Positions 1 through 17,015 of a stretch of 21,916 bases of DNA are shown piece by piece (positions within the stretch are counted from its first letter, which is position 1; each line of letters opens with the position of its first letter). Under the pieces are notes generated by a model. It had not been told where the DNA came from. It worked only from the letters and a program-made list of their open reading frames with translations, and made no database searches. The stretch lies in the IMG/VR virus record IMGVR_UViG_3300018420_002346, positions 1-21,916 of that record. The stretch is one strand, 5' to 3'. A program made the position numbers and the translations under genes. This DNA comes from a virus.

Positions 1-14
1 AAGATTGCAATCTT
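1..14. repeat. 14-bp perfect palindrome at window edge
   Basis: The first 14 bases (AAGATTGCAATCTT) equal their own reverse complement, and the last two belong to the stop codon of the amidinotransferase gene on the minus strand. There is no loop and no T-run visible inside the window, so it is not a convincing intrinsic terminator. What lies to the left is unseen. It may be chance in AT-rich DNA. Confidence 0.3.
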
Positions 15-1071
15 AGTCAAAGTAACTCTCCAAGCCACCTTTGCGTTTTACATCTAATGTATTACAGTGAAAGCCGCCGCTCATACTACGAGCTTGACGT
101 GCAGGACACGCTACACTTTCAATGCCATACTTGTCTAATATACGCATTAGTGGTTCTTGGTCTTTGTCAATTACTACACAATTTTCATTAATGCTTAACA
201 AGTTCATACCAATCCACGGACTGCAAGGACTTACACCGTTTGGTAAATTGGCATTTGGTGCAACAAGATCTTCCATACCTACAAAAATCTTATCCCATGA
301 TTCGAATATCTTTGGATAATGATCTGGTGTACAACGTTCTGCATTAAACATAACTAATCCAGGGCGTAAAGGAATAACTGTGCTATCAAAGTGCGCAAAG
401 AAGTAAAAGTCTTCTGCTAGGTGTAACTTATATCCTCTTGGCTCTACAATAGTCTTTAACCATTCGTATCCTAATAACGATCCTGTGTTACTTACTTGAT
501 ATAATAAGTCCTTGCCAAGTCTTACAATGTTTGGAGCCTCCCATACAATTTCATTGTTCTTTACTGTAGGAACACTTAGGTCTTCAAATTGATATAGATC
601 GTCTTTAAGAATAGGAGCAGGACTTTTGATCCATTGTACGCCTTCTTTCATTTGCTGATATAAGTAGTCGTAATATACACGAGTTTCGTATTGTCTTGCC
701 CGCATAGGACTACTACATTCGATAATCATATTATCAAGTGGCAACAATAAATCTCTTGGACAAAAACTATACCATCCTGTTGTTGTCCAGTCAGGCGAAC
801 TAAATTCTACACTGTGATCTGTAGGAGTAGGACGATGCACTTTAATACCTAACTTAGTTAGTGTATCAGATAAAATTTCTAAATCTTCTTCTGCTTCTTC
901 CATGATTTGTTTATCATGTGGACCTTCTAATCCCTTTAGTTCTTCTTCACTGTAGGTTGCGTACGAAAAACTACGAACACTAGGGTCCATAGTAGGAAGC
1001 ACTGCGCCTTTGGCAGTGCCTACAAAGATTTCTTCTAACGGATCCCAGTCATTGTTTGATTGTACTGCCAT
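13..1071 (-). CDS. Glycine/inosamine-type amidinotransferase
   Basis: This 352-residue protein matches the L-arginine:glycine amidinotransferase / StrB family, which moves the amidino group of arginine to an amine acceptor through a cysteine intermediate. Family landmarks are in order: EAPNIVRLGKD (178-188, with the catalytic Asp188), AHFDST (His227 in the HxD position), WIGMNLLSI (286-294) and GGFHCNTLDVKRKG near the C-terminus with the nucleophile at Cys336. The end, LESYFD, resembles the end of human AGAT, so the gene looks full length. All three catalytic positions are present. The ATG is preceded by GGGAG seven bases upstream, and the start overlaps the aminotransferase gene by 23 nt, so the two are probably co-translated. 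The acceptor cannot be read from sequence: glycine, another amino acid or an aminocyclitol are all possible. Confidence 0.9.
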   Translation of the reverse strand: MAVQSNNDWDPLEEIFVGTAKGAVLPTMDPSVRSFSYATYSEEELKGLEGPHDKQIMEEAEEDLEILSDTLTKLGIKVHRPTPTDHSVEFSSPDWTTTGWYSFCPRDLLLPLDNMIIECSSPMRARQYETRVYYDYLYQQMKEGVQWIKSPAPILKDDLYQFEDLSVPTVKNNEIVWEAPNIVRLGKDLLYQVSNTGSLLGYEWLKTIVEPRGYKLHLAEDFYFFAHFDSTVIPLRPGLVMFNAERCTPDHYPKIFESWDKIFVGMEDLVAPNANLPNGVSPCSPWIGMNLLSINENCVVIDKDQEPLMRILDKYGIESVACPARQARSMSGGFHCNTLDVKRKGGLESYFD

Positions 1072-1951
1072 CTAAAACTCCCTTATTTAAATAATTATGA
1101 AAACTAAGCCTATTAGTATTACTGCCACGATTATAATCAATCCATTCATCGCCGCCTATACCAAAAAGAACAGTTGCACTAGGCTTAGTGTTTGTAATTT
1201 TACAAAACTTTATTTGTGTTGTTCTATATTTGTTTACTATATAATCCGAACTAAAATTATTAATCAATTCTAATCCTAGTATTGCTCCAAGTCTATTTTG
1301 ATAATTTGCCTTTTCATAAACAAACAAAGTATCATCGTCATCTTCTTTTGTTAACCGCATACCAATACGTGCGTGTGCTACTGGAAATGTTTTACTTAAA
1401 CTAAATGTAATATCAGTTATACACTTATGATTAAAATCAAAATCTAGTTCCGAACTTATTGTATAGTATGCACAATCTATTAGTACAGGTATGTTTAATG
1501 CACTACAATTATGTAAGATAAAATCCATTTGTTCGTGTTTGTTACCTGTATCAGCAAACGGATAACTTATAATTACAGCATCATTGCCATCTAACTTTCC
1601 GTCTTCAATATAGTCCCAATTTAATTTACTATTTCGCCAAGCTAACTGATGATACAAATATTCTGATTTAAAAATCCTAAATCTTCTATTAAGATTTTTC
1701 ATATAAAATTTATCAAATGCTTCGCTTGTACCATGTGAATACACAGCATATTTAAAATTATCTAATCCTGTTGTATTGTGAGGATGTTGTTTAATCCAAT
1801 CTAAATATGTTTGACAAAACTCTTTATTAATATCAATATTAGAAAATTGATCTAAGCTGATATTCTGCATGGCATTTAATACATTGGCATCATTTACTGC
1901 GGCTGAGTGACCAAACGGTAAATGCTTATTGTCATATTGATACTTACTCAT
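1049..1951 (-). CDS. PLP-dependent aminotransferase, fold type I, compact
   Basis: This 300-residue protein has the marks of a class I/II aminotransferase. SHGTSEAFDKFY (72-83) fits the phosphate-binding turn, VLIDCAYY (156-163) supplies the Asp159 that pairs with the pyridine nitrogen, and FSLSKTFPVAHARIG (183-197) is the Schiff-base motif with Lys187 and the following Arg195. NRLSF near 280-284 places an Arg where the substrate carboxylate is usually held. At 300 residues it is well below the usual 380-420, so the small domain is reduced. It overlaps the upstream oxygenase gene by 8 nt and the downstream amidinotransferase by 23 nt. A plausible order is amine installation followed by amidination, as in aminocyclitol pathways, but that order is inference. 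The Shine-Dalgarno site is weak, consistent with translational coupling. Confidence 0.8.
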   Translation of the reverse strand: MSKYQYDNKHLPFGHSAAVNDANVLNAMQNISLDQFSNIDINKEFCQTYLDWIKQHPHNTTGLDNFKYAVYSHGTSEAFDKFYMKNLNRRFRIFKSEYLYHQLAWRNSKLNWDYIEDGKLDGNDAVIISYPFADTGNKHEQMDFILHNCSALNIPVLIDCAYYTISSELDFDFNHKCITDITFSLSKTFPVAHARIGMRLTKEDDDDTLFVYEKANYQNRLGAILGLELINNFSSDYIVNKYRTTQIKFCKITNTKPSATVLFGIGGDEWIDYNRGSNTNRLSFHNYLNKGVLDGSTIKQ

Positions 1952-2462
1952 TATCTAACCACGTAATTTGCATAACTATAAAATCTGTAAAACTAAAATT
2001 ACTAACTCCGTGCCATGTATATGCACTCCAACTATATATATCACCTACACTCCATTGTGTGTTAGCCTCTTGGTCAATTTGCATTACTTGACCTTTATCC
2101 CAAGGCGTAAGCATAACAACAGTTCTGTTTATATTTTCTGCTTGCTGTTCTGTAATATTATTATACCGTACAAAGGTAGAATAGCTATCGTAATGCATCC
2201 AAAGATTATATCCTGGAGTTAGCTTTAAAAAGTTATAATGATGGATTTTATTTTCAAACGGTGTTAGATACCTTTTTAATTCATCGTCGATTTTAGGATT
2301 AAGCGCCATATAATGCTTAGAACATTCCTTTGGCATACCGAGCTTACGATATTGATCTTCTAACGCTAATTTTTTAGTTGTAGCAAAGTTATCCCATATA
2401 TCAGTATGCGGAACTTCATCTATCATATATGTTTCTAACCATTCAAACTGATCTGTGTTCAT
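1944..2462 (-). CDS. 2OG-Fe(II) oxygenase-like protein lacking the usual 2OG arginine
   Basis: This 172-residue double-stranded beta-helix protein is of the small phage 2OG-Fe(II) oxygenase type. The segment LTPGYNLWMHYDSYSTF (81-97) carries the HxD iron motif (His90, Asp92), GDIYSWSAYTWHGVSNF (140-156) carries the distal His151, and the strand ending in IVMQITW follows. In the paralogue starting at 4234 an Arg lies 10 residues after the distal His; here that position is Phe161 and no basic residue is nearby. Either 2OG is anchored from another strand (Arg113 is a candidate) or the enzyme uses no 2OG. AGGA lies seven bases before the ATG. The gene overlaps the GT-like C-terminal reading frame by 20 nt upstream and the aminotransferase by 8 nt downstream. 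Confidence 0.72.
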   Translation of the reverse strand: MNTDQFEWLETYMIDEVPHTDIWDNFATTKKLALEDQYRKLGMPKECSKHYMALNPKIDDELKRYLTPFENKIHHYNFLKLTPGYNLWMHYDSYSTFVRYNNITEQQAENINRTVVMLTPWDKGQVMQIDQEANTQWSVGDIYSWSAYTWHGVSNFSFTDFIVMQITWLDNE

Positions 2463-2805
2463 TTGCTAGTCCTTTAACTATTTCTTTGTTATGCCATAAA
2501 ATAGGCTGCATTGACTTTAATATAGACTCAAGTGTATTGTAATCTAGCGAATTAATGTAATCTAAAGTTTTAAATATTTTTTTTAAACGTTGTTCATGAT
2601 CAATTTCGTCATCATAGCTTTCGTCCCAAAATTTTTCAAATGTCTTAAACCCTTTACTTTTTAATAACTTTAATGTGTTAGGTGGTCCAACAATAACAAA
2701 CGGTGTTGAATTCCATATAGGTATTATAATTTTTTCACTAAAATAACTAGTAGGATCTAAAAAACCTGATTCACATACTACTGCACAAAATACATCAGTA
2801 AACAT
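2443..2805 (-). CDS. C-terminal part of GT-like phage protein, after an in-frame stop
   Basis: The 120 residues match the C-terminal domain of a family I know only as conserved phage proteins with a faint glycosyltransferase (fucosyltransferase-like) signature. CAVVCESGF (7-15) is followed by FSEKIIIPIWNSTPFVIVGP (22-41, the SEK...PI...G pattern), then GFKTFEKFWDESYDDEID. Relatives are single proteins with an N-terminal half like the reading frame just upstream, which is in the same frame and ends in TAA five codons before this ATG. The ATG has no proper ribosome site: only GTGAG directly against it. This is therefore probably the distal half of one gene broken by a nonsense codon, or a product of readthrough or reinitiation. 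A separately expressed domain is possible but less likely. Confidence 0.6.
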   Translation of the reverse strand: MFTDVFCAVVCESGFLDPTSYFSEKIIIPIWNSTPFVIVGPPNTLKLLKSKGFKTFEKFWDESYDDEIDHEQRLKKIFKTLDYINSLDYNTLESILKSMQPILWHNKEIVKGLANEHRSV

Positions 2806-2820
2806 CTCACGCTTAATTTA
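2806..2820 (-). other. In-frame TAA junction between two halves of a GT-like gene
   Basis: On the minus strand the upstream frame reads ...SLVPN, then TAA at 2820-2818, then codons for I-K-R-E, then the ATG of the downstream frame. Both reading frames start at coordinates that are multiples of three, so only this stop codon separates them. Converting it to a sense codon would give a protein of about 433 residues. Confidence 0.75.
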
Positions 2821-3744
2821 ATTAGGAACAAGGCTTACACTAGGAATTTCTAATCTGTCAGTTATCTTTCCGTATACAGTTGAAGGATTACATTTTATTG
2901 TGTCTATTTGTAAGGGAGACATTTCGTCTAATTTCTTTTGTCCTGTAATTATTGATTTTCTTAATTTAGTATCCCAATTATTAATATTAAACCATATTGC
3001 ATTTTTAAAATTCTTAGGTGACATTTTATAGTGCCAACTAATTTTAGAATCAAAATTTATTAAGTACGAAGCAATTATATGCCTATATGGTTCATATCGC
3101 CAGTTAGTATTAATAAATTTATATTTTAATTTATTTTTTCTAAAAGTTCCTTGATTTCTTGTTATTTTAATAATTCTATCTTGTGTATCAATATCGTAAT
3201 ATTTGAATTTTATATTAGTATATCTTGATGAAAACTTTTCTAAATTTAATTCTGGGGAGCATACTGTTACATTAGTCAGTTTATTATTTTCAATTAAATC
3301 CTGTACACTATCTAATTGAAATGATCTTGACCCATTTGAAAATTTTCCTTTTAATAATCCTTCGTTATTTTCTAACAATATTAAATCTTGCTTGAGATTA
3401 TTTCTATTTAATTTAGTTCGTGATCCTGTATATTTAAGAATATTTTCAGTTAGATAAACAGTTAGTCCTACCTTATTAAGCAAATCAATAGTATCATTAT
3501 TGTAACGAATACTATCCATTTGAGGACACTCAAGTGTATCGTTAAATATCATAAATGGCGTTTCGTTGTGATCTAGTATTGTTAAATAATCCTTAAAAGA
3601 TTGTATCGGCGAAGTATAAAATGACGGATCACTATATTTAAAATCTTTATCACTTATGCCTTCTTCTAACAAGTATTCTATATTATTAACATCAATTATT
3701 TTATAACTTGAAATATGTTCTAATAATAACGGGCCATTATACAT
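2818..3744 (-). CDS. N-terminal part of GT-like conserved phage protein
   Basis: This 308-residue protein has no clear signal peptide or membrane segment. The recognisable element is YKFINTNWRYEPYRHIIASY near 205-225, which corresponds to the N-R-x-x-x-x-HR signature seen in phage GT-like proteins whose C-terminal half carries the SEK...PI...G motif. That half lies immediately downstream in the same frame beyond a TAA. The N-terminal 190 residues are lysine/asparagine rich and unrecognised. The ATG has GGAG six bases upstream and overlaps the oxygenase gene before it by 8 nt. DNA here is the most AT-rich of the window: 9 G/C in the 60 bases from 3121. A sugar- or surface-modifying role is only inferred. 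Confidence 0.6.
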   Translation of the reverse strand: MYNGPLLLEHISSYKIIDVNNIEYLLEEGISDKDFKYSDPSFYTSPIQSFKDYLTILDHNETPFMIFNDTLECPQMDSIRYNNDTIDLLNKVGLTVYLTENILKYTGSRTKLNRNNLKQDLILLENNEGLLKGKFSNGSRSFQLDSVQDLIENNKLTNVTVCSPELNLEKFSSRYTNIKFKYYDIDTQDRIIKITRNQGTFRKNKLKYKFINTNWRYEPYRHIIASYLINFDSKISWHYKMSPKNFKNAIWFNINNWDTKLRKSIITGQKKLDEMSPLQIDTIKCNPSTVYGKITDRLEIPSVSLVPN

Positions 3745-4234
3745 CTACAACTCCAGTAACTTGTATAGTGTATCTATTTTTATTTCCAACATTAACTGCA
3801 CTATGTAAGGTTGTTCCTGACCATCCTACTATGTCGCCAGCTTTCCAATTAGAATAAACTGTACTACCTACTGTTAAAAGATGACCTTGTTCCCAATCTT
3901 CAGCAAATATTACGTAACGCTTTATAAGATTTAAGTCTAAAACATTGTGCGCTTTTGAATAGTATCCGTATTTGTCTTGATGTGGTGGCAGATAGTGCCC
4001 AGGTGTTAGGCAATGAAAACATACTCCTATATGTTCTAGGTCTACAAAATGTTTTGATACAGTATCAATTATGTGTGTTTCGTCCTTAATAGGGCATATG
4101 CCAATTGTAGTATTATCGATATTATGTCCTATGCGTTTCCAAGCAGAGAGCTGCTCTTTATCTCTAAAATACTCTTGGGTATACGATAAAGTTTTATAGT
4201 AATTAGACCAAAAAGGACGAATCGATTTCTTCAT
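3737..4234 (-). CDS. 2OG-Fe(II) oxygenase, small phage type
   Basis: I place the start at the ATG at 4234, giving 165 residues. A longer frame would run across the divergent promoter into the opposite gene. CLTPGHYLPPHQDKYG contains the HxD iron motif (His85, Asp87), AGDIVGWSGTTLHSAVN contains the distal His144, and NKNRYTIQ puts Arg154 ten residues later for 2-oxoglutarate. All cofactor residues are present. The closest architecture in the window is the protein starting at 2462. The substrate is unknown. It is the first gene of the minus-strand block, lies directly against a late-type promoter and has no Shine-Dalgarno sequence. Confidence 0.8.
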   Translation of the reverse strand: MKKSIRPFWSNYYKTLSYTQEYFRDKEQLSAWKRIGHNIDNTTIGICPIKDETHIIDTVSKHFVDLEHIGVCFHCLTPGHYLPPHQDKYGYYSKAHNVLDLNLIKRYVIFAEDWEQGHLLTVGSTVYSNWKAGDIVGWSGTTLHSAVNVGNKNRYTIQVTGVVDV

Positions 4235-4247
4235 ATTAATATTTATA
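4235..4247 (-). promoter_or_regulatory. T4-type late promoter for the minus-strand block
   Basis: The minus strand reads TATAAATA (4247-4240), an exact match to the T4 late-promoter -10 element, followed by TTAAT and then the ATG at 4234. In T4 the element covers about -13 to -6, which puts +1 on the A of the start codon. The match is exact, but the region is AT-rich, so function is inferred. Confidence 0.6.
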
Positions 4248-4260
4248 TACGCACTTAACG

Positions 4261-4273
4261 AATAAATATTAAT
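4261..4273 (+). promoter_or_regulatory. Late-type promoter for the plus-strand block
   Basis: The plus strand reads AATAAATA (4261-4268), fitting the NATAAATA late motif of T4-like marine phages, followed by TTAAT and the ATG at 4274. Geometry is identical to the opposite-strand promoter. There is no Shine-Dalgarno sequence. Confidence 0.55.
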
Positions 4274-4942
4274 ATGATTACGCGAACTAAACATATTGTA
4301 GATCTTGCTCTCATAGAAGAAGCAGCACAATCATTCAAAACTAATGATTTTAAAACTACACTAAACGAGCCATCTGGATCATTCTTCTATGACGGATGGA
4401 GAATTAAGGAAGAGTATAAAAATACAATATGGGAAAAACTGCTTACTACACTTGCTGTTAGTAATCACGGCGAAGCAAGAGTGATAAAGTTAGACATAGA
4501 ACGTTGTTACACTGCACACGCTGATATAGATGATAGGTGGCATTTATCATTAGATCGAGGAAAGCACTTCTTAGTAGATTTAGATACTTTAGAGTTACAT
4601 TCTACTAAATTAGGATATTGGTATAATATGGATACTAGTATTTTGCATAGTGCTGTAAACTTTGGCGATAATCCTCGTTATCAATTAGTTGTTAGACAAC
4701 TGTTAAATAATGCTAAAATTTTAGATAGTAGTAAGGTACAAATTATAGTCAAAGGCGAACATAGTAGATATAAATTTGATAGTACATTAAGTCCTTGGCT
4801 TAATAGAGCTAACAAGAATAGTAGATTAAATTCATTTACAGTTAATGACAATGTTGTAGAGTTTAACATACCAACAGACGATATCGAAATATTGCAGCAG
4901 GTTGTGCCTAAAGAATTCGAGTTTACACATGTCAGAAACTAA
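4274..4942 (+). CDS. 2OG-Fe(II) oxygenase-like protein with C-terminal extension
   Basis: The 222-residue protein has a complete set of iron and 2OG ligands. CYTAHADIDDRWHLSLD gives the HxD motif (His82, Asp84), MDTSILHSAVNFGDNPRYQL gives the distal His125 and Arg135 ten residues later. The -LHSAVN- stretch is the same as in the oxygenase transcribed divergently from the shared promoter, so the pair are paralogues. The order of motifs also resembles aspartyl/asparaginyl beta-hydroxylase-like proteins. Residues 145-222 are an extra region with no family I recognise. It is the first gene of the plus-strand block and overlaps the kinase-like gene by 14 nt. Confidence 0.75.
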   Translation: MITRTKHIVDLALIEEAAQSFKTNDFKTTLNEPSGSFFYDGWRIKEEYKNTIWEKLLTTLAVSNHGEARVIKLDIERCYTAHADIDDRWHLSLDRGKHFLVDLDTLELHSTKLGYWYNMDTSILHSAVNFGDNPRYQLVVRQLLNNAKILDSSKVQIIVKGEHSRYKFDSTLSPWLNRANKNSRLNSFTVNDNVVEFNIPTDDIEILQQVVPKEFEFTHVRN

Positions 4943-5498
4943 TTTAAAACCATTCTTTAAATTTGCAAACGGATATGCGTGTCAAGCTACTCCGTTGTAT
5001 GATGGTAGCTATGATAATACCGTTTTTGTAATGTCTTACAAAGACCAATACTGGTTTGATTTAGAAGTTAGAGGAATTAAATTACTAGAAGGCAAATCTT
5101 ATTCTCCCGAAATAATAGATGTTGACCCTGTACAAAAGAAAATAACATTTAAATGGTATGATACTAATTTAAATCATATGTTGCATTATAACAAACCTTT
5201 ACCTAAAGATTGGATTATTCAAATAAAAGAAATATTAGAAGATTTAGAAAACTCAAATATTTTTAAACTAAACATCTATCCGCACACCTTTTATTTAAAA
5301 AATGATAAAGTATGTGTAATGGATTTATACGCTTGTCTATTAATTGAAGATAAGATTACTAGCGAAGTATTAGAAGGCGTAATAAACAATAAAAGTAGGT
5401 TTCCTATAAAAGACAATATACTTGATATTAAATATGCATACGACTATACAATAACAAACAACATAGGCGAATGGCCAGGAGATTTTTTAAATGCTTAA
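4929..5498 (+). CDS. Degenerate kinase-like (phosphotransferase-fold) protein
   Basis: The start is placed at the ATG at 4929 (189 residues). The upstream in-frame alternative is a TTG inside the previous gene. The pattern is that of a small kinase fold: FDLEVRGIKLL (43-53) fits the alpha-C helix with its Glu, ITFKWYD (72-78) fits the hinge strand, NIYPHTFYL (115-123) stands where kinases have the catalytic loop (D-x-H-P-x-N in aminoglycoside-phosphotransferase types), and VCVMDLY (128-134) fits the metal-binding Asp132. The catalytic Asp and the metal-binding Asn positions read Asn115 and Thr120, so phosphotransfer is doubtful. The same family appears at 7359. Kinase relationship is inferred from pattern only. 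Confidence 0.5.
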   Translation: MSETNLKPFFKFANGYACQATPLYDGSYDNTVFVMSYKDQYWFDLEVRGIKLLEGKSYSPEIIDVDPVQKKITFKWYDTNLNHMLHYNKPLPKDWIIQIKEILEDLENSNIFKLNIYPHTFYLKNDKVCVMDLYACLLIEDKITSEVLEGVINNKSRFPIKDNILDIKYAYDYTITNNIGEWPGDFLNA

Positions 5499-6039
5499 CT
5501 TTATCGGAAATTGTAATAATATTATTTGTTGGAACGATGTTATTAAAAGTGTAGACCAAGCAACTCCTGCATATGTCGGGCCGCGACACGATGTCGGACA
5601 CGAAGTAGAAGGCGTTGACGAAGTTGCAAAACCAATTAGAGATGCTGGATATAAATTCAAAGCCGAAGGTGGTAATGCTAGTTGGGAAATGCATTTTCCA
5701 GGTAAACAATTTTCAGCTGATGTAGTTGACACGTTTATGGAGTTTGTCGGAATGGACAGTTATATAAACTGCTGGATTAGTAAAATATATCCTGGTGATG
5801 TTGCTCCATGGCACTGGGACATAACCGACGACGAAAACACATTAAATGCAAAAGGTGATTTAAAACGATTTCATTGTCATATAGATATTCCTAGGCCTGG
5901 GCATATCTTTATCATTGATAGTACTTGTTTATACAACGAACAACAAGGAAATGTATATCAATGGCCAGATAGAAAGAGTTGGCACGCTGGTGCAAATGCA
6001 GGACTAACGCCAAAGTATCTATTTAACATCTGGGGGTAA
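5491..6039 (+). CDS. 2OG-Fe(II) oxygenase with lysine in the 2OG position
   Basis: The 182-residue protein carries APWHWDITDDE (HxD: His108, Asp110), a jelly-roll core RFHCHIDIPRPGHIF (126-140), and RKSWHAGANAGLTPKYLFNI (161-180) with the distal His165 and Lys175 exactly ten residues later. Some 2OG oxygenases, such as FIH and JmjC proteins, use lysine rather than arginine to bind 2-oxoglutarate, so activity is plausible. A good AGGAG lies nine bases before the ATG, and the gene overlaps its predecessor by 8 nt. It differs enough from the divergent pair that it probably has another substrate. Confidence 0.78.
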   Translation: MLNFIGNCNNIICWNDVIKSVDQATPAYVGPRHDVGHEVEGVDEVAKPIRDAGYKFKAEGGNASWEMHFPGKQFSADVVDTFMEFVGMDSYINCWISKIYPGDVAPWHWDITDDENTLNAKGDLKRFHCHIDIPRPGHIFIIDSTCLYNEQQGNVYQWPDRKSWHAGANAGLTPKYLFNIWG

Positions 6040-6040
6040 A

Positions 6041-6556
6041 ATGAAAATTATCTTAACAGGAGCATCAAACAATATTGGTAATATGTTATTAACGCATTAT
6101 AGTTCACTGTATGATGTTATACCTATAAGTAGAAAGCACAACTGGGATTTATCAATAGAAGCAAAACAACAAGAATTAGTTGAGTTAACTAAAACAGCAG
6201 ATGTGTTATTAAATGTCGGTCACTTAAATTTCTTTCAAGGAATTTTATTAGAAAAAAGTAATGCAAAAATTAATATAAGTTTTAGTAGTTTACTTACAAA
6301 ATTTAATTGGAGCATAATTAAGAATTTTGATAGCCCTACTTATTTGGCTGAAAAGTTATTCTTAGAACATGTACACAACGAATTAAAAAATAGTGCATTA
6401 ATTAGGATTTCTAAATACGGAAAAGGAGGTATACCTAGTATACTTGACGAACAACTAATTAGTGCAATTGACGATGTAATTGAAGGTAGAAGTATACTGC
6501 CTACATGTATTGATATTAGTAATGGGGCAGGTGCTCTATCTCAAGTGCTTTCTTAA
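6041..6556 (+). CDS. Short NAD(P)-dependent SDR-type reductase
   Basis: The 171-residue protein opens with MKIILTGASNNIG, the TGxxxxIG dinucleotide-binding turn of short-chain dehydrogenases. INISFSSLL (78-85) supplies the catalytic Ser region and TYLAEKLF (100-107) is the YxxxK motif (Tyr101, Lys105). Usual SDRs have 230-250 residues; here the loops between the Rossmann strands and the C-terminal substrate lid are shortened. The core catalytic residues are retained. GGGGG lies four bases before the ATG, one base after the oxygenase stop. The 3' end overlaps the convergent oxygenase gene by 41 nt. Carbonyl reduction of a sugar or aldehyde intermediate is likely but unproven. Confidence 0.7.
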   Translation: MKIILTGASNNIGNMLLTHYSSLYDVIPISRKHNWDLSIEAKQQELVELTKTADVLLNVGHLNFFQGILLEKSNAKINISFSSLLTKFNWSIIKNFDSPTYLAEKLFLEHVHNELKNSALIRISKYGKGGIPSILDEQLISAIDDVIEGRSILPTCIDISNGAGALSQVLS

Positions 6557-7331
6557 ACGATTCTGAAAATTTACAATCAATACGTAGACCGTACTCTACT
6601 TCTGTACTATTTTCGCCGCCATGCCAATCTTGATCATTCCAAAACGCTGCATTACAATTTAGATAATGCTTGTTTTCGCTTTCAGGATCCCATATATAGA
6701 ATCCACGTTTAGTACGATAACGTATGTGTATAAATTCATTGTTATGCGGACTGTATTGCTTATCATCATGTACGCCATTGTTTGCATCTAAATCTCTATG
6801 TTCAAATGCTCTACCATTGTGATCACAATGAAAAAATATAACTCTACCTATACGATCAATGATTCCGTCTGTTTGTAATCCTTCAACCCAATCAACTACT
6901 CCTGGGAAGAACTTTGACTCTTCTGTTTTTTGACGTTCTGCATTACGTTCATTCCAATCGCCTTCATTCCATAAGAAGTAATAAACGTAAGGATCGTCTG
7001 CACCTAGTGTAGTTTTAAGATAACGAGTAAAAATGTTACGTTGTTTATAATCACCAAAGTCTGTTGGTAGTATTTTATTACCTTCTACTTTAATACGATG
7101 ATCTTCTGGCAGTGCCTGATAATCATTCCACGCCTGATAGATTGGCTTCCAGTTCATAATATAACTAGAATCTTTCCATTCAAAGCCAGGTGCCATCCAC
7201 GTACCTTCTTTGGCGTAATCTCTAGCGCAAGCGAATCCCCTTGCTATTTCAGGATGCAAGAGTTTAAACTTGCTCACAGGCAAGTATGGATCTAAGTTAA
7301 TATAGGGCTTTCCGCCAATTCCTCGTATCAT
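6516..7331 (-). CDS. 2OG-Fe(II) oxygenase, long form
   Basis: The start is placed at the ATG at 7331 (271 residues). The longer frame would add a hydrophobic leader encoded inside the divergent kinase-like gene and is probably spurious. FEHRDLD (176-182) carries the HxD motif (His178, Asp180), FIHIRYRTKRGFYIWDPESE (200-219) is the core beta-strand pair, and NDQDWHGGENSTEVEYGLRI carries the distal His237 with Arg250 thirteen residues later. The N-terminal 160 residues form an extra domain rich in Trp and Tyr. It is the only minus-strand gene between two plus-strand blocks, so it is probably transcribed alone. Its 3' end overlaps the SDR gene tail-to-tail. Confidence 0.75.
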   Translation of the reverse strand: MIRGIGGKPYINLDPYLPVSKFKLLHPEIARGFACARDYAKEGTWMAPGFEWKDSSYIMNWKPIYQAWNDYQALPEDHRIKVEGNKILPTDFGDYKQRNIFTRYLKTTLGADDPYVYYFLWNEGDWNERNAERQKTEESKFFPGVVDWVEGLQTDGIIDRIGRVIFFHCDHNGRAFEHRDLDANNGVHDDKQYSPHNNEFIHIRYRTKRGFYIWDPESENKHYLNCNAAFWNDQDWHGGENSTEVEYGLRIDCKFSESFKKALEIEHLPHY

Positions 7332-7358
7332 GTAAGTACTTATCAGGTAAGTACAAGT
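7332..7358. promoter_or_regulatory. 27-bp divergent gap with palindrome and direct repeat
   Basis: Between two divergent ATGs the gap contains the 10-bp palindrome TAAGTACTTA (7333-7342) and two direct copies of GTAAGTAC (7332-7339 and 7347-7354). No late motif or good sigma-70 pair is present: the best minus-strand -10 is GATAAG with no matching -35. It could be an operator or chance. Confidence 0.3.
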
Positions 7359-8054
7359 ATGAAAGACAATTACGAGTATTATTATAATAATGTACCTGGG
7401 AAAGGACTGTGTAGAAATAATCTTATCTACACAAGCCTTATTAGTAAAGATCGAAAAACATTTTGTCAATGGTATTACAATGATACTGACTATCATAAAG
7501 GTCACAATCAAGTAGTTGATCCTGCATTAATGGAGGAAAAGTTTAACAGAGAAGTCGAAGGCTTAGTGTATATGGACGATCAAGGGTTTAGTGATCTAAT
7601 ACCTGAATTTGATATTGACTTTAACGAAAAGAAAATATACCTAAAAATTGACGGTCCTGATATGTGGGAACTAGCAGGCTGTACAGGAACAGACTACAGT
7701 GCTGTAGTACCTGACTGGGACAAACAAATGTTAAACATTCTTCAAGCACACTATGATATAGGACTATACAAATATAGTTTACATCCTAGCAGTTATTTTG
7801 TTGTTGACGGACAATTAAAAAGTATGAATTATTTTTTTACATACTTTGAGGATGAACCATATATTTCTTTAAGAAGTGTAATGAGTCATATAAGCGAAGA
7901 AAGACAAGCAGATTTATTTCCTAAAATGACTGCTGCTGGTATTGATGTTGATCAACCAACACCTCACAATGAAATACAACTTCTTGCATTTGAAAGTTTT
8001 AGAACAAACTTTAGAGATGATGTAATGGAGGCTGCTAAACAAATCTATGTATAA
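7359..8054 (+). CDS. Kinase-like fold protein lacking catalytic residues
   Basis: The 231-residue protein resembles the one starting at 4929. FNREVEGLVYM (62-72) fits the alpha-C helix Glu, KIYLKIDG (92-99) fits the hinge strand, and DIGLYKYSLHPSSYFVVDG (133-151) corresponds to the catalytic loop, followed by LKSMNYFF where kinases have the metal-binding Asp. Ser140 stands at the catalytic Asp position, Ser145 at the Asn, and Asn157 at the second Asp, so it should not phosphorylate. A binding or scaffold role is a fair guess. The Shine-Dalgarno site is poor (AGG eleven bases upstream). It starts the plus-strand block and overlaps the acyltransferase-like gene by 8 nt. Confidence 0.5.
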   Translation: MKDNYEYYYNNVPGKGLCRNNLIYTSLISKDRKTFCQWYYNDTDYHKGHNQVVDPALMEEKFNREVEGLVYMDDQGFSDLIPEFDIDFNEKKIYLKIDGPDMWELAGCTGTDYSAVVPDWDKQMLNILQAHYDIGLYKYSLHPSSYFVVDGQLKSMNYFFTYFEDEPYISLRSVMSHISEERQADLFPKMTAAGIDVDQPTPHNEIQLLAFESFRTNFRDDVMEAAKQIYV

Positions 8055-8604: not shown

Positions 8605-9269
8605 AAGTTAATAAGGATTGGTCGCGTATAGGTATTAGTTTAAGTGGCGGTGCAGATAGTGCATTGCTTGCATATCTAATACTTAAAGAAACTGATGCTG
8701 ACATTTATTTTACTACGCAAGTACGTATGTGGAAGACTCGCCCTTGGCAGCGTTATGTTGCACAAGGCGTAGTTGCATGGTTTCGCAATCACTTTACTAA
8801 TCATATAGAGCACATCGAAGGGTTTATTCCTCCAGAACTCGAGGAACCTGTAAGCCCTCTTATTACAGACGAGTATGGTGCAGAAAAACCCGGTAATAGA
8901 ATTATACTTAGAGCACACAATGAATTTATAATTCACACGCATAAATTAGATGCTTGGTTTGCTGCTGTTACTAAAAATCCAGAAGATGTTCCCGGCGGTC
9001 TACCCGAACGCAACAAAGGAGTATTACCGTTACATATGAAACATATGGGTATTGACATTTGTCATCCTTTCGTGTATACTACTAAAGACTGGATCGTAAA
9101 ACAATATTACGAAAACAATATAGAAGACTTATTAAATATTACTCGCAGTTGCGAAGGCGAGTTTGAACATATAACTTATCAAACATATACTCCAGGACAA
9201 TATGTTCCTATATGCAGAGAATGTTTTTGGTGTAAAGAAAGAGAATGGGCAATTGAACAAATCAAATAG
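8595..9269 (+). CDS. QueC-like PP-loop ATP pyrophosphatase
   Basis: The 224-residue protein begins with RIGISLSGGADSALLAYLI, the N-type ATP-pyrophosphatase PP-loop (SGGADS, 17-22). HPFVYTTKDWIV (157-168) is the region QueC-type enzymes use after the nucleotide fold, and four cysteines in the QueC zinc pattern follow: Cys186 (TRSCEG) and CRECFWC (Cys207, 210, 213). QueC makes 7-cyano-7-deazaguanine by adenylating a carboxylate and adding ammonia. No QueD, QueE or QueF is recognisable in the window, so this enzyme may serve DNA/RNA deazaguanine chemistry elsewhere in the genome, or may activate another carboxylate for amide or nitrile formation. It is followed by an overlapping radical SAM gene. 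Confidence 0.75.
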   Translation: MALEVNKDWSRIGISLSGGADSALLAYLILKETDADIYFTTQVRMWKTRPWQRYVAQGVVAWFRNHFTNHIEHIEGFIPPELEEPVSPLITDEYGAEKPGNRIILRAHNEFIIHTHKLDAWFAAVTKNPEDVPGGLPERNKGVLPLHMKHMGIDICHPFVYTTKDWIVKQYYENNIEDLLNITRSCEGEFEHITYQTYTPGQYVPICRECFWCKEREWAIEQIK

Positions 9270-10524
9270 TTGTACATTTTGTATGCATCCATTTACTGGA
9301 TTAGCTACTAGAGAAGACGGCGCTGTCAAAGTATGTTGCCGCAGCCAGCCTATTGGGTTTATTCAAAACGAAACTCTAGAAGAAATATGGAATGGCGACA
9401 ACATGAAGGAAGTTCGTCGTCAAGTATTGAACAACGAGCGACCAGATGTATGCAAACCGTGCTTTGACCTTGAAGATCAGGGTGTACAGAGCTTACGACA
9501 GCGTCATACAGCAGGGGTAATACCAGAAGCTAGGGTCAACTTATACCCTGATGCATTAGACGCTTTAGACGACGATTATAACATGCCGTTTGAACTTCCT
9601 ACAATGGAGATCAAACTTAACAACTTGTGCAACTTAAAGTGCCGTATGTGCAATCCACTAGACAGCACTAGCTGGAAGGACTGGAACGAAGTGAAACCAT
9701 TCTACGAAAAGGAAAATAATATTCTTATTCCTATTGTAGACACACTTACTACTAAGCCAGGACAATATATTGGTCCGTTTGATAACTCAGACAACTGGTG
9801 GACAAGTTTTGAAAAACTACTGCCGCACTTTAGACGTGTAGAGTTTGCAGGTGGCGAGCCATTAATGGATCCGTATCACTACAAGATACTTGATAAACTT
9901 GCACCTTACGGAGATAACATAGAGCTAAAGTACGCTACAAACGGTACTACGCTAGGTATTAAAGGCGGAAGAACAATACACGACTATTGGCCTAAGTTTA
10001 AATCAATCGCGGTAAATGTAAGTATAGACGGTTTACATGATGTATACGAGTACATTAGAGGCAATGGTAAGTTTAGCGAAATAGAAGAAAACATAAAAGT
10101 ATTCAAAGCATTTCCTAATGTAAGTCGTGTTGTTGGTGCGTTTACTGTACAAGCAAATAACATCTTGCAAATTTGTGATGTAATTGATTACTTCTTAAAT
10201 GACTTAGGCATTGTATTTTATTCACATCGTGTAAACTATCCTATGGCACTAAGTGCGCAAACACTACCGCCTGAACTAAAAGCAAAGGTTGTTAGTGATT
10301 TAGAAGATATGAAAATTAAAATTCTTGACTATGCTGTTATACAAGAAAACGAATTGCTTAAAACTGTAACACTGCAACAGATACAAGATAATATTAACTT
10401 CTTAACTGCAAAATGTATGCACGATACACACTGGCAAGATTGTATAAATTTTAATCTTGCATTAGATAAAACACGTAATCAAGACTTCCTTACAGTAAAT
10501 CCGGAATTTAAACAGTATGTATAA
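9202..10524 (+). CDS. Radical SAM enzyme with N-terminal twitch domain
   Basis: The 440-residue protein has its auxiliary-cluster domain in front of the radical SAM barrel, as in the N-twitch radical SAM family. SCTFCMHPFTG (Cys24, Cys27), KVCCRS (Cys45-46) and DVCKPCFD (Cys84, Cys87) form the first domain. LNNLCNLKCRMC (Cys143, 147, 150) binds the SAM iron-sulfur cluster, FAGGEP (215-220) is the SAM amino-group motif and VSIDGLHD (273-280) is a barrel strand. Substrates of this family are not established. The ATG at 9202 has AGGA four bases upstream but overlaps the PP-loop gene by 68 nt. A TTG at 9253 would reduce the overlap to 17 nt and keep all cysteines. The gene overlaps the next by 8 nt. 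Confidence 0.88.
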   Translation: MFLYAENVFGVKKENGQLNKSNSCTFCMHPFTGLATREDGAVKVCCRSQPIGFIQNETLEEIWNGDNMKEVRRQVLNNERPDVCKPCFDLEDQGVQSLRQRHTAGVIPEARVNLYPDALDALDDDYNMPFELPTMEIKLNNLCNLKCRMCNPLDSTSWKDWNEVKPFYEKENNILIPIVDTLTTKPGQYIGPFDNSDNWWTSFEKLLPHFRRVEFAGGEPLMDPYHYKILDKLAPYGDNIELKYATNGTTLGIKGGRTIHDYWPKFKSIAVNVSIDGLHDVYEYIRGNGKFSEIEENIKVFKAFPNVSRVVGAFTVQANNILQICDVIDYFLNDLGIVFYSHRVNYPMALSAQTLPPELKAKVVSDLEDMKIKILDYAVIQENELLKTVTLQQIQDNINFLTAKCMHDTHWQDCINFNLALDKTRNQDFLTVNPEFKQYV

Positions 10525-11419
10525 AGTTACGTCAAAATGGCCACATCAAGATTCAATTAAGGTAGAATGGAATTTAGGAAAACGCTGTAACTTAGATTGT
10601 GCATACTGTCCAGCAGCTATCCATGATAACTATAGTCCGCATACTAATATTAAAGTATTATTAGATACTGTAGATGCGCTTGCTGAATTAGATAAGCCTG
10701 TTAGAGTAAGTTTTACAGGTGGCGAACCATGTATACATCCAGACTTTGAAGAATTAATTAAACATGCAAGACAAAGATTAGATTGGATTAATGTAACTAC
10801 TAACGGTTTGCGTAAAGCAGAATGGTATGCAGAAGCACCTGTAGATCACTATGTGTTTAGTTTGCATTTTGATAACGAACATTGGGAACGTGCAATGGAT
10901 AATATTATGTTTTTTGCACAACACAATGAAAATATGGATAGAATACCATTTCAAGTAAATGTTATGGCACATCATCAACATATGGATCGTGTACGGTTGG
11001 CTGTTGCACGATTTCACGGTCATAATATTCCATATGTAATTAGACGTATACGATGGACTGAAGCAGAAGACCGTGATTGGTTTGATGATATGCGTTATGA
11101 TACAAAAGACTTAGATTGGATATTAAAGACTAATGCTACTGCGTTACCTAACTGTGTTATTGACGAACACGAATTAAAACATGCCAACGACATTATTAAA
11201 GAAAAACTTAATGGATACGAAGGGTGGCGGTGTGCTGCTGGTATAGAAAGTTTAATGATTAATTGGGATGGAGAAGTACATCGAGCTACATGCAGAGTTG
11301 GTAGGAGCTTAGGTAATATTTACGATGGTAGTTTCGAAGCACCCGAAGAATGGATTACATGCACACGTAAATGGTGTACATGCGCTGCTGATATTCCTTT
11401 AACTAAAGTTTCCACTTAG
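10517..11419 (+). CDS. Radical SAM enzyme with C-terminal SPASM/twitch-like domain
   Basis: The 300-residue protein carries KRCNLDCAYCPAA (Cys24, 28, 31) and FTGGEP (66-71). After the barrel comes YEGWRCAAG (Cys239), a strand INWDGEV, Cys259, then CTRKWCTC (Cys282, 287, 289), which would bind one auxiliary iron-sulfur cluster. The same GWxC...CxxxxCxC ending occurs in the protein encoded convergently at 11403 and, with a changed spacing, in the one at 15348, so the three are paralogues. Histidines are unusually frequent in the middle region (MAHHQHMDRVR). It is last in the plus-strand block, and its end overlaps the convergent paralogue by 17 nt. Confidence 0.88.
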   Translation: MYKVTSKWPHQDSIKVEWNLGKRCNLDCAYCPAAIHDNYSPHTNIKVLLDTVDALAELDKPVRVSFTGGEPCIHPDFEELIKHARQRLDWINVTTNGLRKAEWYAEAPVDHYVFSLHFDNEHWERAMDNIMFFAQHNENMDRIPFQVNVMAHHQHMDRVRLAVARFHGHNIPYVIRRIRWTEAEDRDWFDDMRYDTKDLDWILKTNATALPNCVIDEHELKHANDIIKEKLNGYEGWRCAAGIESLMINWDGEVHRATCRVGRSLGNIYDGSFEAPEEWITCTRKWCTCAADIPLTKVST

Positions 11420-12353
11420 TCATTAACATTTCAGGTTGACACCAACATTTGTTTTTTGTACATACAGTTGGCACAAGCTCTGGATTAAATGTTTCAGTAA
11501 AGTCTTTATCGTATAAATTATAGAATTTTTCTTCACCGTATAACAAGTTACCACAAGTACCTGTAATTGTTCCGTCTTTTTGAATATTAATATTTTCAAT
11601 ACCTATATTACACATCCAGCCTTCGAATTCGTTCAAGTCATTTACAGAAAAGAAATTTCTATTAACTTTTTCTTTAGATCCATCATCATATGTAACTTTA
11701 GTCTTACCTTTAAGAATGTTTTCGTGCTCGTCTTTGAAAACTCTCCATATTGGGGGTCTACGTTTAGTATGATCCTTAAAAATATCTCGTTGATTTCCAG
11801 TATATTGGGGAGGATGAACTTCCATTGCAGAAATAAACCACGAATGCTTGCTACGTTGTTTCATTATTTCAATTGCTTCAACACATTCTTCGTATGCCGT
11901 AGGATCTATCAAAACTAGTGCATTAATAGGAATACCTTTACTGTATACTAAGTCTAATACATCAATGTATTGATTAATGTCTGTTACTTCTTTATGATGA
12001 TAACTAAACAATACTTTATCAAATGCTGTTACATTCTTTTCCCACCATCGTAGTGTTCGGCTGGCGTTTGAGCTAACAGTTATTTTAACATTATAATTAG
12101 CTTTTAGTTCTCTAGCAAATTTTGCAACATCTGGCCATAATGTTGGTTCACCGCCTAATAAATTAACTTCAAATTTATTTCTTCCGTTACTAACATAAAA
12201 GTCTAATAAATGCTTAAAGTTTTTAACTAACTCGTTATAGTCGTTGTGCCAACGAGTATCACCGCCATTTGCATACGGGCCACAGTACCAACATTTGTAG
12301 TTACAATAATTACCAATCATAAACTCTATTCTAAGTCTATTTTTTGACTCCAT
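11403..12353 (-). CDS. Radical SAM enzyme, paralogue with GWxC...CxxxxCxC C-terminus
   Basis: The ATG at 12353 gives 316 residues; a longer form would need a GTG at 12419 inside the preceding gene. GNYCNYKCWYCGPYANGG (Cys17, 21, 24) is the cluster motif, and LLGGEP (65-70) binds SAM. The end carries FEGWMCNIG (Cys248), Cys267 and CTKNKCWC (Cys298, 303, 305), matching the spacing in the protein at 10517. The GPYANGG stretch after the third cysteine resembles WPYARSS in the protein at 15348, so those two are closer around the SAM site. There is a 23-nt gap from the upstream gene and no obvious ribosome site. Confidence 0.85.
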   Translation of the reverse strand: MESKNRLRIEFMIGNYCNYKCWYCGPYANGGDTRWHNDYNELVKNFKHLLDFYVSNGRNKFEVNLLGGEPTLWPDVAKFARELKANYNVKITVSSNASRTLRWWEKNVTAFDKVLFSYHHKEVTDINQYIDVLDLVYSKGIPINALVLIDPTAYEECVEAIEIMKQRSKHSWFISAMEVHPPQYTGNQRDIFKDHTKRRPPIWRVFKDEHENILKGKTKVTYDDGSKEKVNRNFFSVNDLNEFEGWMCNIGIENINIQKDGTITGTCGNLLYGEEKFYNLYDKDFTETFNPELVPTVCTKNKCWCQPEMLMTKWKL

Positions 12354-12376
12354 TGTATCTATTCTAATTATTTCTT

Positions 12377-13777
12377 TCAAAGTAAATGTCCTAATTCTGG
12401 AAAAAAGTTTGCTGCACACAAACCTCTAATGTTATCTAGTTTGTTTACATATTCTTTAAAGCCAGGCAGCAGATGTGTGCTGTCTTTTGAATCCATATAG
12501 TTTAATAACCCTTGCCATTGACGCCATCCCTTAGGATTGTGTAGCCAAAAGTCATCGTCTTGTGTGTAGTTGTCCCATAGCCATTGCTTTAATTCTGCAA
12601 AACGGTTGTGTACGTCTTGTTTATCTTCTGCGGGCAACATAGTAATGTTTAAGAATGTAGGTATATGTACTAGATGTGCATTTACTAGTCCGCCGCCCAT
12701 CATATTGCCATCAATTAACCCTACGTTTACTTTTTTGAAGTTGCTAGTAACTTTCCACTTGATAAAATCCGGTATAGTTTTTATATTGAATATTTGTACT
12801 GCTGTTGCTATACTGATATGTATATTATCAGGAGTGTCGTCTAGTAATCGTAATGTACTTTCTACATCTGTAAACTTTGTAGGAAAACGAATATACTCGT
12901 CACGTTCTTCATAACTGTCAATTGAAATAGCAAACTTAACTTTCTTAAACTTGCTCCAAAGTGCAATTAGTTCTTGATCAACTAATATACCGTTTGAGTT
13001 ATAACGTAATAATATATTTTGCTCGTATCCTTGGCGTACAATTTCCTCTAAGAACGTTTTATGTTCACGAATCATTAAAGGTTCGCCACCGGCAAAATAT
13101 ACTTGCTTTAGGTTAGGAATCTGTGCATATAGTTCATCCCAGAACTCTTTGCGCTCGTGCCATTTATTATTAAACTCTTTTTTGTCCCAGCGCATTTGTT
13201 TCTTAACATCAGGGTCTTGCAGTACAGGAATAAGTTTCTGCCAATCACCTACCCACTTTGAACTGTCGTGTGGACTACACATTACGCATTTAATATTACA
13301 AGTATGTCCTAAACGTAAATCTAAATACTGCAAACGTTCGGGTACAGTACCATCTTGTTCAGTTTGGGAGATTAGTTCTTGTATATCAACGCCTTCGTCA
13401 TTCATCCACGTAGCAGTTTCCCAAATACGTTTGCTAACAACGCCTTGTGCTTCTTCGTCAAAACATCCTTTACAACTTGCAGGTATCTCTCCACGTAGCA
13501 TAGTTGTACGCACACTTTTCATATAATCATTATTAAATGCTTCTAGGGGAGTATTACGTGCAAAGTTAGCAGGACGACCATCTTCCATTTTAACAAGTCC
13601 TACTTCGTGATCTTCACCTGCACCACTAGCATTTGCTGTGCAGCATAAACGCATATCGCCATTTGGTCTAGTTGCTAAGTGTATCCAAGGAAGTACACAA
13701 AAGGTACAACTTGACTTAGATTCTAAATCACGTTGAAACTTTCCTAATCGTGTGTCTTCACTATCGTACCATTTCAT
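12377..13777 (-). CDS. Radical SAM enzyme with N-terminal twitch domain
   Basis: The start is set at the ATG at 13777, where it forms an ATGA junction with the methyltransferase stop and has AGG nine bases upstream; this gives 466 residues. SSCTFCVLPWIHLATRPNG (Cys24, 27), MRLCCTA (Cys45-46) and ASCKGCFDEE (Cys102, 105) form the front domain. GHTCNIKCVMCSPHDSSKW (Cys160, 164, 167) is the SAM cluster motif and FAGGEP (228-233) follows. FAISIDSYEERDEYIRFP is the conserved barrel segment. It is the longest of the three N-twitch proteins in this window, the extra length being an insert after the CC pair and a longer C-terminus. Coupling to a methyltransferase suggests they act on one substrate. 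Confidence 0.9.
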   Translation of the reverse strand: MKWYDSEDTRLGKFQRDLESKSSCTFCVLPWIHLATRPNGDMRLCCTANASGAGEDHEVGLVKMEDGRPANFARNTPLEAFNNDYMKSVRTTMLRGEIPASCKGCFDEEAQGVVSKRIWETATWMNDEGVDIQELISQTEQDGTVPERLQYLDLRLGHTCNIKCVMCSPHDSSKWVGDWQKLIPVLQDPDVKKQMRWDKKEFNNKWHERKEFWDELYAQIPNLKQVYFAGGEPLMIREHKTFLEEIVRQGYEQNILLRYNSNGILVDQELIALWSKFKKVKFAISIDSYEERDEYIRFPTKFTDVESTLRLLDDTPDNIHISIATAVQIFNIKTIPDFIKWKVTSNFKKVNVGLIDGNMMGGGLVNAHLVHIPTFLNITMLPAEDKQDVHNRFAELKQWLWDNYTQDDDFWLHNPKGWRQWQGLLNYMDSKDSTHLLPGFKEYVNKLDNIRGLCAANFFPELGHLL

Positions 13778-14379
13778 TTCTTTTTGCCTATAATCATAAA
13801 TCTTGTATATTTCTCTGTAGGATACTCGCCTGCCCAAATTACGTTAAGTCTAGACATACGTTTAAAGTCATCCAAATCTGCTGCACAATTAATATGTTCT
13901 TCTAACTCAAAGTAGTTATTACTTTGTAGTATAATTAATGCTTCGTCTGGTACTAGATTTAACCAACACTCATATGCACCGTTAGTAAGATGTTCGCAAC
14001 TGGTGTTAATAACAATATCACCGTTACCATCATAATCGCTCATATCTGCGGTTACTGCTGTAAAACGTCCTTCCATTTCTTGACGCTTGTTTACTGTACT
14101 TGCAAGTTCTTGGCATGTAGGATCAATATCTACACTGGTAATGTGTTTAATAGGAATACCTGTGTTAAACAAAATACTAGACAATACTCCGTTCCAGCCG
14201 CCGTAAATTTCAATCTTTGCAGACTTGTGCCAAGTGCCGCACATTTCTTCTAGTCGTTCCGCGAGCCAGACCTTGCTGCGAAGTTGACCTTTCCAGAACG
14301 ATTCTAATGTACGATATCTATCATCACTGTTGCGAATAGCATCCATCCAAAACATTACATCTTCAATTTCAACTTTCAA
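13774..14379 (-). CDS. Class I SAM-dependent methyltransferase
   Basis: The 201-residue protein has the Rossmann methyltransferase motifs in order: EIYGGWNGVLS (57-67, motif I with a G-x-x-G turn), SVDIDP (82-87, acidic end of beta-2), VTADMSDYD (109-117) and DIVINTSCEHL (121-131, motif IV). The C-terminal half closes with a beta strand RFMIIGKKK. It lacks a target-recognition domain, so it is not a typical DNA methyltransferase. The start is TTG, supported by AGGAG six bases upstream; the next ATG would remove eight residues. It lies between two radical SAM genes, overlapping one by 11 nt and the other by an ATGA junction. Confidence 0.75.
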   Translation of the reverse strand: MKVEIEDVMFWMDAIRNSDDRYRTLESFWKGQLRSKVWLAERLEEMCGTWHKSAKIEIYGGWNGVLSSILFNTGIPIKHITSVDIDPTCQELASTVNKRQEMEGRFTAVTADMSDYDGNGDIVINTSCEHLTNGAYECWLNLVPDEALIILQSNNYFELEEHINCAADLDDFKRMSRLNVIWAGEYPTEKYTRFMIIGKKK

Positions 14380-15355
14380 ATTGTGCTCCTAGTTTATCGA
14401 AAATACCGCATTGCTTACTACATTCTTGTAGAGGCTTATCTGTCCAAGTATTTTCAATATGTGTAAAATAATTAGATTCAAATATATCCTTTAAACTTTG
14501 TTTGTTTAAATTAGGAAACACTTCAATCTGCTCCATATAATCAATTCTTGATTCTTGAGAGGGTAATATCCAACCAAAATCTAACCAACAACACGGACTT
14601 ACTGTTCCGTTTGCACCTACGTATATCTGTGATTGTTTCTTAGCTTTACATACAATTGTAGGAGAAACTGCCTGTTGTGCTTGTTCAACTAATGGTATCA
14701 TGTTTTTACTTTTACTAGTAGGCTCTAAATAATGAGTAGGTTTGCCATTATCATCTAGCACTGCCCATTTGTCATTTTTAAATCTACTAGTATGCTTTAC
14801 TGTAAAATTATTAAATTTCATTTCGTTTGCAATAGTACGACATTCTTCAATTTGATGTTCGTTATGTTTAAAGACTAACATGGCCCACTCTGCATTACCG
14901 CCATTGTCGATAAAAGATTTTGCATTTTCAATAATCTTGTGCCAATCTGTAGATACTCTATATAAATGATGTGTATCTGCAAGACCATCAATGCCGAATG
15001 TTACATCTATATTTAAGTATGCAAGATCATGCCACCATCTTTTACTTCGTGCGCCGCCATTAGTATGCATACTAAGTCTTATATTAGTGTTGTTCTCTCT
15101 AAGATATTTAAAGATTTCAAGAGTGTCCTCAGCGATAATAGGATCTCCTAAATTGCCGCACATAAACAATCTATCCAATTGTTTTACAAAACTTACAGGG
15201 AACCATTGCTGAAATTGTTCTAATGTAATTTCATCTAGCGTTATCAAAGGATTTAGCATGCCGCCACTAATACGTCTAGGACACATAGGACAACGTGCCT
15301 GACACTTACTTGTAACTTCTAAATGTATTTCTTTTATATCTGTATAATTATACAT
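14369..15355 (-). CDS. Radical SAM/SPASM enzyme with GNLGDP in place of GGEP
   Basis: The 328-residue protein starts MYNYTDIKEIHLEVTSKCQ, with CQARCPMCPRR (Cys18, 22, 25) as cluster motif. The SAM-binding GGEP is replaced by CGNLGDP (66-72), a variant known in some SPASM-type radical SAM families. The C-terminal part has Cys236, GTVSPCCWLD (Cys255-256) and ECSKQCG (Cys312, 316), a SPASM-like auxiliary-cluster set. It belongs with the protein at 17012 rather than with the N-twitch or GWxC groups. AGG six bases before the ATG supports the start. It overlaps the upstream radical SAM gene by 8 nt. Confidence 0.87.
   Translation of the reverse strand: MYNYTDIKEIHLEVTSKCQARCPMCPRRISGGMLNPLITLDEITLEQFQQWFPVSFVKQLDRLFMCGNLGDPIIAEDTLEIFKYLRENNTNIRLSMHTNGGARSKRWWHDLAYLNIDVTFGIDGLADTHHLYRVSTDWHKIIENAKSFIDNGGNAEWAMLVFKHNEHQIEECRTIANEMKFNNFTVKHTSRFKNDKWAVLDDNGKPTHYLEPTSKSKNMIPLVEQAQQAVSPTIVCKAKKQSQIYVGANGTVSPCCWLDFGWILPSQESRIDYMEQIEVFPNLNKQSLKDIFESNYFTHIENTWTDKPLQECSKQCGIFDKLGAQFES
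14380..14390 (-). promoter_or_regulatory. Ribosome binding site fixing a TTG start
   Basis: On the minus strand AGGAG (14390-14386) is followed by six bases and then TTG at 14379. Spacing is ideal and the site favours the TTG over the ATG 24 bases downstream. Confidence 0.6.
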
Positions 15356-16980: not shown

Positions 16981-16986
16981 GTTATT

Positions 16987-17015
16987 ATTATACTACTTTT
17001 AAAATTATTTGTCAA
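16987..17015 (-). promoter_or_regulatory. Perfect-consensus sigma-70 promoter
   Basis: The minus strand reads TTGACA (17015-17010), 17 bases, then TATAAT (16992-16987): both hexamers and the spacer are the textbook optimum. Six bases later is the ATG at 16980, so the predicted +1 is the A of the start codon. The -35 box contains the TGA stop of the upstream gene. Confidence 0.8.

Follow-up and report, generated by a model that had tools for sequence, protein, structure and literature searches.

The window, by which we mean the whole stretch of 21,916 nucleotides that was analysed, is a 21.9-kb virus record holding many radical SAM/SPASM proteins, 2OG oxygenases and other enzymes. Two operons diverge within it from a short junction at 4231-4277. 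The leftward one opens with a gene (3737-4234, minus strand) for a 165-aa 2OG oxygenase of the aspartyl/asparaginyl hydroxylase-like type (Pfam PF05118, E 5e-7) and continues, tightly packed, through two related unknowns, a second oxygenase, an aminotransferase-like gene and a 352-aa unknown (13-3744, minus strand). The first gene of the rightward operon (4274-4942, plus strand) encodes a 222-aa member of a distant 2OG-oxygenase-like family, with 46 relatives in viral contigs, and the rest of this operon occupies 4902-6556 (plus strand). The initial annotation had described the two first genes as paralogous oxygenases; both are indeed 2OG-oxygenase-like, but their mutual match is distant, and the partner of the plus-strand gene, an oxygenase in the window, is in its relatives often an unrelated enzyme, for example a radical SAM protein, a PP-loop protein or a member of other families. 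A second divergent junction, at 7329-7361, separates the genes 6516-7331 (minus strand), which has 269 matching stretches in viral contigs at up to 86% identity, and 7359-8054 (plus strand). From 9202 to 21801 the window carries a dense radical SAM/SPASM cluster with methyltransferase-, PP-loop- and GNAT-like genes, whose order is kept, with variations, among relatives and which probably represents one biosynthetic pathway.

Searches with the plus-strand gene and with the 6516-7331 gene gave relatives, and a search for close relatives of the leftward gene (3737-4234) found nothing. Among annotated phages, neither the window nor its plus-strand protein had a match, and almost no gene near the repeat described below received a name from PHROGs or NCBIfam. 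Some relatives of the plus-strand gene are carried by contigs 107-357 kb long. Of the 19 relative contigs tested, 3 have the T4 capsid protein gp23 (E about 1e-82) and 5 have homologues of the gp55-type late sigma factor (E 2e-6 to 3e-8), one of which has a 46% match to annotated late sigma factors; two Pfam models for gp45 gave no match, but neither did they give one for a positive control, so that this negative carries no information. Since the large relatives carry gp23 and gp55 homologues, the group is T4-type and, through this link, the window is, as judged from sequence, a fragment of an uncultured T4-type phage. By capsid and sigma factor, PA5oct, Phosso and similar jumbo T4-type phages are the closest cultured kin of the relatives.

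The junction between the two operons is a perfect inverted repeat of 47 bp, with arms of 16 nt at 4231-4246 (minus strand) and 4262-4277 (plus strand), 100% complementary and separated by a loop of 15 nt. Each arm, read outward, is ATAAATA-TTAAT-ATG-A, and thus contains promoter box, spacer and start codon of its operon. On the minus strand the box TATAAATA (4247-4240) is followed by TTAAT and ATG (4234-4232); on the plus strand AATAAATA (4261-4268) is followed by TTAAT and ATG (4274-4276), and from both ATGs the reading frames are open (165 and 222 aa). The arrangement had been claimed by the initial annotation and was found exactly as described; 200 dinucleotide shuffles of the window produced no perfect inverted repeat of at least 16 bp with a loop up to 40, and repeats of at least 12 bp averaged 0.085 per shuffle. 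Moreover, ATAAATA is depleted in the window, where 16.8 occurrences would be expected and 3 are found, two of them within the repeat.

Late-promoter boxes close to the start codon

That the two boxes are T4-type late promoters, as first proposed, agrees with their match to the T4 consensus (PMC2988020). The T4 late box is an 8-bp element spanning -13 to -6, with its first T at -13, and T4 late promoters tolerate A in place of this T, a variant present at nine T4 sites (PMC2988020); the rightward box at 4261-4268 has A at -13, and both boxes of the window (4240-4247, minus strand; 4261-4268, plus strand) lie 5 nt before the ATG. In nearly all relatives of the plus-strand gene, TAAATA or TAAGTA is found a few nucleotides before the start codon, and the proteins of the family start alike from the predicted ATG, with M-[I/L]-x-x-T. 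Among 71 ATAAATA sites drawn from 35 non-redundant relative loci and the window, 40 stand 4 nt (20 sites) or 5 nt (20 sites) before the ATG of an open reading frame, other distances being represented by about 0.4 each. The whole-genome counts were likewise anchored on open reading frames, because pattern counts that do not require them are noisy in AT-rich phages; the loci are metagenome contigs, many of them related, and the counts are therefore not fully independent.

The late boxes of the relatives (TAAATA/TAAGTA) fall into two classes, one at 4-5 nt from the ATG and devoid of a Shine-Dalgarno sequence, the other at 14-30 nt and usually provided with one. Both are visible in the large relatives G003 (357 kb) and G012 (217 kb), where boxes lie either at 4-5 nt or at about 14-23 nt, the latter separated from the ATG by a Shine-Dalgarno. 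Over the whole set, a Shine-Dalgarno sequence precedes 3-10% of the genes of the close class, compared to 70% of leadered late genes and 47% of all other genes, and a pyrimidine stands just before the ATG in 83-92%, 51% and 43% of them, respectively. The same alternative is found among orthologues of a single gene: in 50 distinct upstream regions of gene 6516-7331, 39 have a box at 4-5 nt and none of these a Shine-Dalgarno, whereas 9 of the remaining 11 do have one, so the orthologues use one system or the other.

The short distance, observed in many relatives, together with the lack of a Shine-Dalgarno and the pyrimidine before the A, supports the earlier proposal that the mRNAs would be leaderless. 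Given the position of the T4 box (PMC2988020), a spacer of 5 nt sets +1 on the A of the ATG, in accordance with the start sites first predicted; in the window these would be 4234 (minus strand) and 4274 (plus strand), each with a pyrimidine at -1. For spacers of 4 nt, a +1 held rigidly at box+6 would coincide with the T, and the choice of the start must there shift by one base.

A host-type promoter, or an AU-rich signal for ribosome binding, might in principle take the place of a gp55-dependent promoter, as some of the spacers between divergent boxes contain TATAAT-like strings and AT-rich starts can help ribosomes. Nevertheless, in the same genomes the box is found 16-23 nt upstream of starts with a Shine-Dalgarno, a position that rules out a role in ribosome binding; its sequence agrees with the late box of T4 (PMC2988020), and gp55 homologues are encoded by relatives. 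In addition, the distance to the ATG is 4 or 5 nt, with no case at 3 and almost none at 6, which fits a rule for transcription start. We thus regard this explanation as improbable. A host -10 element (TATAAT) within the spacer was also considered and dropped, many spacers having no TATAAT.

Divergent pairing of the boxes

The two TAAATA boxes of the window are separated by a gap of 17 bp, TATACGCACTTAACGAA (4246-4262). The junction at 7329-7361, the only other one of divergent genes examined in the window, is organised in the same way: in each direction a TAAGTA box precedes the ATG by 5 nt, and the two boxes are 5 bp apart. In the relatives, an opposite-strand TATTTA was found within 40 nt upstream of 75 of the 129 distinct leaderless sites, compared to 2 expected (37-fold). 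The gaps between divergent boxes peak at 4-5 and at 18-19 bp and, less markedly, at 32 bp; no such peaks were seen in convergent and tandem box controls, nor in T4, PA5oct and Syn9. The three classes are spaced by steps of about 14 bp, which is not a helical turn. Twins upstream of the relatives of gene 6516-7331 have a gap of 4-5 bp in 30 cases out of 32, and gaps of 17-19 bp, as well as parts of TATACGCACTTAACGAA, recur between other gene pairs. When viral contigs were scanned with fixed TTTC arms (CATGAAATATTTA...TAAATATTTCATG) and the gap left free between 3 and 33 bp, 44 modules were retrieved, of which 43 had a gap of 18 or 19 bp. These span about ten pairings of gene families, so the module is not tied to one gene pair. 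On this sequence evidence, the paired boxes form a module that recurs, with the distance between them nearly fixed at 4-5 or 17-19 bp.

By contrast, the 47-bp element did not turn out to be conserved as an exact unit, the relatives keeping only the boxes, their distance to the ATG and the class of the gap. Six other viral contigs (L251-L256) have arms identical to those of the window, but with a gap of 10 bp and different genes; there the arms separate two short unrelated genes, of 56 aa and of mostly 140-144 aa. Nor was the proposed origin by inverted duplication of one gene start borne out, because the module joins unrelated families, and unrelated gene pairs share the twin layout.

Two ordinary late promoters could also face each other by chance, the identity of the arms then resulting from coincidence and a shared consensus rather than from a special twin module. 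Indeed, 9 of the 16 bases of an arm (TAAATA and ATG) are fixed by promoter and start codon, which leaves only the 5-nt spacer and two flanking bases, and identical spacers in both arms are not the rule, being found in 8 of 34 pairs in set A and in 3 of 30 in set B. These numbers, however, exceed the 2.1 and 0.44 obtained by permutation, the excess being significant in both sets; the 37-fold enrichment of opposite boxes upstream of leaderless sites and the clustering of gaps between unrelated gene pairs at 4-5 and 18-19 bp further argue against chance, which we consider an unlikely explanation.

The spacer of 17-19 bp, in the window (4246-4262) and in other modules, has a common asymmetric element, TRTGCTACTATTA.. 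or TRTGCGYACTTAA... This element (TRTGCKNACT...) was found in 29% of twins, compared to 7% of leaderless sites that stand singly and 3% of the remaining boxes. Its enrichment, and the fact that a perfect inverted repeat between divergent operons has the usual look of an operator, would suit a dimeric regulator that binds the repeat and controls both operons from promoters located elsewhere. On the other hand, what is conserved in each arm coincides exactly with the late-promoter box, 4-5 nt away from the ATG; the same box also occurs singly, with no mirror partner; between box and ATG the arm sequence varies freely among relatives, which is not expected of an operator; and in orthologues the box interchanges with a leadered box and a Shine-Dalgarno. 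An operator is, for these reasons, very unlikely in our opinion.

Inversion of a cassette and identity of the arms

The contigs L028 and L037 are collinear over 10.6 kb, with 85% identity. With respect to them, the segment 2805-5003 of L029, a 2.2-kb cassette lying between two twin modules, is inverted, and both breakpoints of the inversion lie inside twin modules. This is the one clear case found, and it comes from metagenome assemblies. The identity of the cassette (86%) is higher than that of its flanks (68-78%), which allows transfer rather than flipping in place. The asymmetric spacer was also observed in both orientations between the same two families, F1 and F7, being nearer to F1 in 5 contigs (L269, L272, L275, L282 and L293) and nearer to F7 in 8 (L261, L270, L274, L283, L286, L287, L292 and L297). 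Both the inversion and the two spacer orientations are compatible with recombination between the arms or with template switching (PMC8604942). In template switching, the arms of short inverted repeats are made alike and the spacer between them is inverted (PMC8604942); as a candidate mechanism in these phages, it would fit both the perfect arms and the spacers found both ways.

In set B the mean similarity of the spacers was not raised (2.10 compared to 2.05) in spite of the excess of identical ones, suggesting that homogenisation of the arms is sporadic, the simplest reading of this excess. The exact identity of the 16-bp arms of the window probably reflects such homogenisation.

The inverted cassette in L029 and the two-way spacer between F1 and F7 could also be expected from a site-specific DNA inversion switch, as in phase variation. 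No recombinase, however, was linked to the module, the two orientations were not seen within one population, the inversion being seen between phages only, and general recombination or template switching (PMC8604942) suffices. Furthermore, a divergence of 14% in the flipped cassette points to an old flip or to a transfer. We consider a switch of this kind highly improbable.

Comparison with known systems and proposed role

The element shares with T4 late promoters, which depend on gp55/gp33/gp45 (PMC2988020), the 8-bp TATA box TATAAATA, or its version with A at -13, the AT-rich segment downstream, and the presence of a gp55-like sigma factor and of gp23 in the relatives of the window. It differs in the position of the box, 4-5 nt from the ATG and thus with no leader, in the alternative TAAGTA and in the divergent pairing at near-fixed gaps. 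In T4, none of the 29 TATAAATA sites is closer than 13 nt to an ATG and there is no peak at 4-5 nt; neither Syn9 nor PA5oct has a 4-5 nt class. We file the element as a variant of the T4 late promoter, and not as a separate kind.

The lack of room for a leader and of a Shine-Dalgarno is reminiscent of the leaderless mRNAs of mycobacteria and other bacteria (PMC3898074, PMC4633059); by contrast with these, the putative leaderless mRNAs of the window group would come from phage late genes, depend on a phage sigma factor and exist beside a second late class with Shine-Dalgarno leaders. The bidirectional promoters of E. coli (Warman et al., PMC12825309) are similar in having a symmetric element and opposite transcripts, with competition between polymerases expected; there, one -10 element is shared, the starts are usually 18, 10 or 23 bp apart, and exclusion between polymerases is discussed (PMC12825309). 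In our case there are two separate boxes, 17 bp apart in the window, in place of the shared -10 element of a Grainger-type bidirectional promoter, the predicted starts are about 28 or 40 bp apart, and the start codons lie inside the element.

A cultured parallel is the Pelagibacter phage HTVC008M (L099-L106), in which 11 called starts (for example 19456, 49760 and 75830) have a late box at a distance of exactly 5 nt from the ATG, and which has one divergent twin, at 18914-18945, with a gap of 4 bp; it differs in that twin modules are rare. In a survey of pelagimyophages, the method used for cyanophages could not predict late promoters (PMC7029224), and the leaderless class of HTVC008M seems to be unreported. 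More generally, searches of the open literature on T4-type phages, directed at late transcripts without leaders, at the mapping of late promoters and at divergent promoters, found no earlier report of such an arrangement, subscription papers and preprints being outside their scope.

Taken together, the 47-bp element is probably a twin late promoter, belonging to an uncultured T4-type phage, that acts with a gp55-type sigma factor, gives leaderless starts, fires in one direction per initiation and serves as an evolutionary joint. A gp55-type late sigma factor would recognise TAAATA on either strand, RNA synthesis would begin at, or within one base of, the A of each ATG, and both operons would be translated from leaderless mRNAs, with the downstream genes of these tightly packed operons presumably translated via coupling or from their own sites. 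The late holoenzyme would bind one box at a time, so that each initiation picks one direction: as the predicted starts are 40 bp apart and point away from each other, we infer that two polymerases cannot fit, and simultaneous firing of boxes 17 bp apart is sterically unlikely. Equal output in the two directions, as proposed by the initial annotation, is not implied. In evolution, the module may behave as a symmetric joint, at which swapped or inverted cassettes would stay expressed because each half carries promoter and start codon. More tentatively, and with a probability that we place well below even, the twin late promoter might be a standardised recombination joint, whose symmetric arms and near-fixed, invertible asymmetric spacer allow enzyme cassettes to be flipped or exchanged with no loss of expression, the orientation of the spacer biasing which side is transcribed.

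If the transcripts are leaderless, some of the late genes in a group of T4-type phages are translated with no Shine-Dalgarno, possibly by exploiting an altered pool of ribosomes in the infected cell, and such promoters will escape gene callers and promoter searches built on the expectation of a leader. The twin module would also offer these phages a simple rule for shuffling gene cassettes at a promoter with no loss of expression. HTVC008M, being cultured and carrying the same signature, makes the leaderless claim directly testable.
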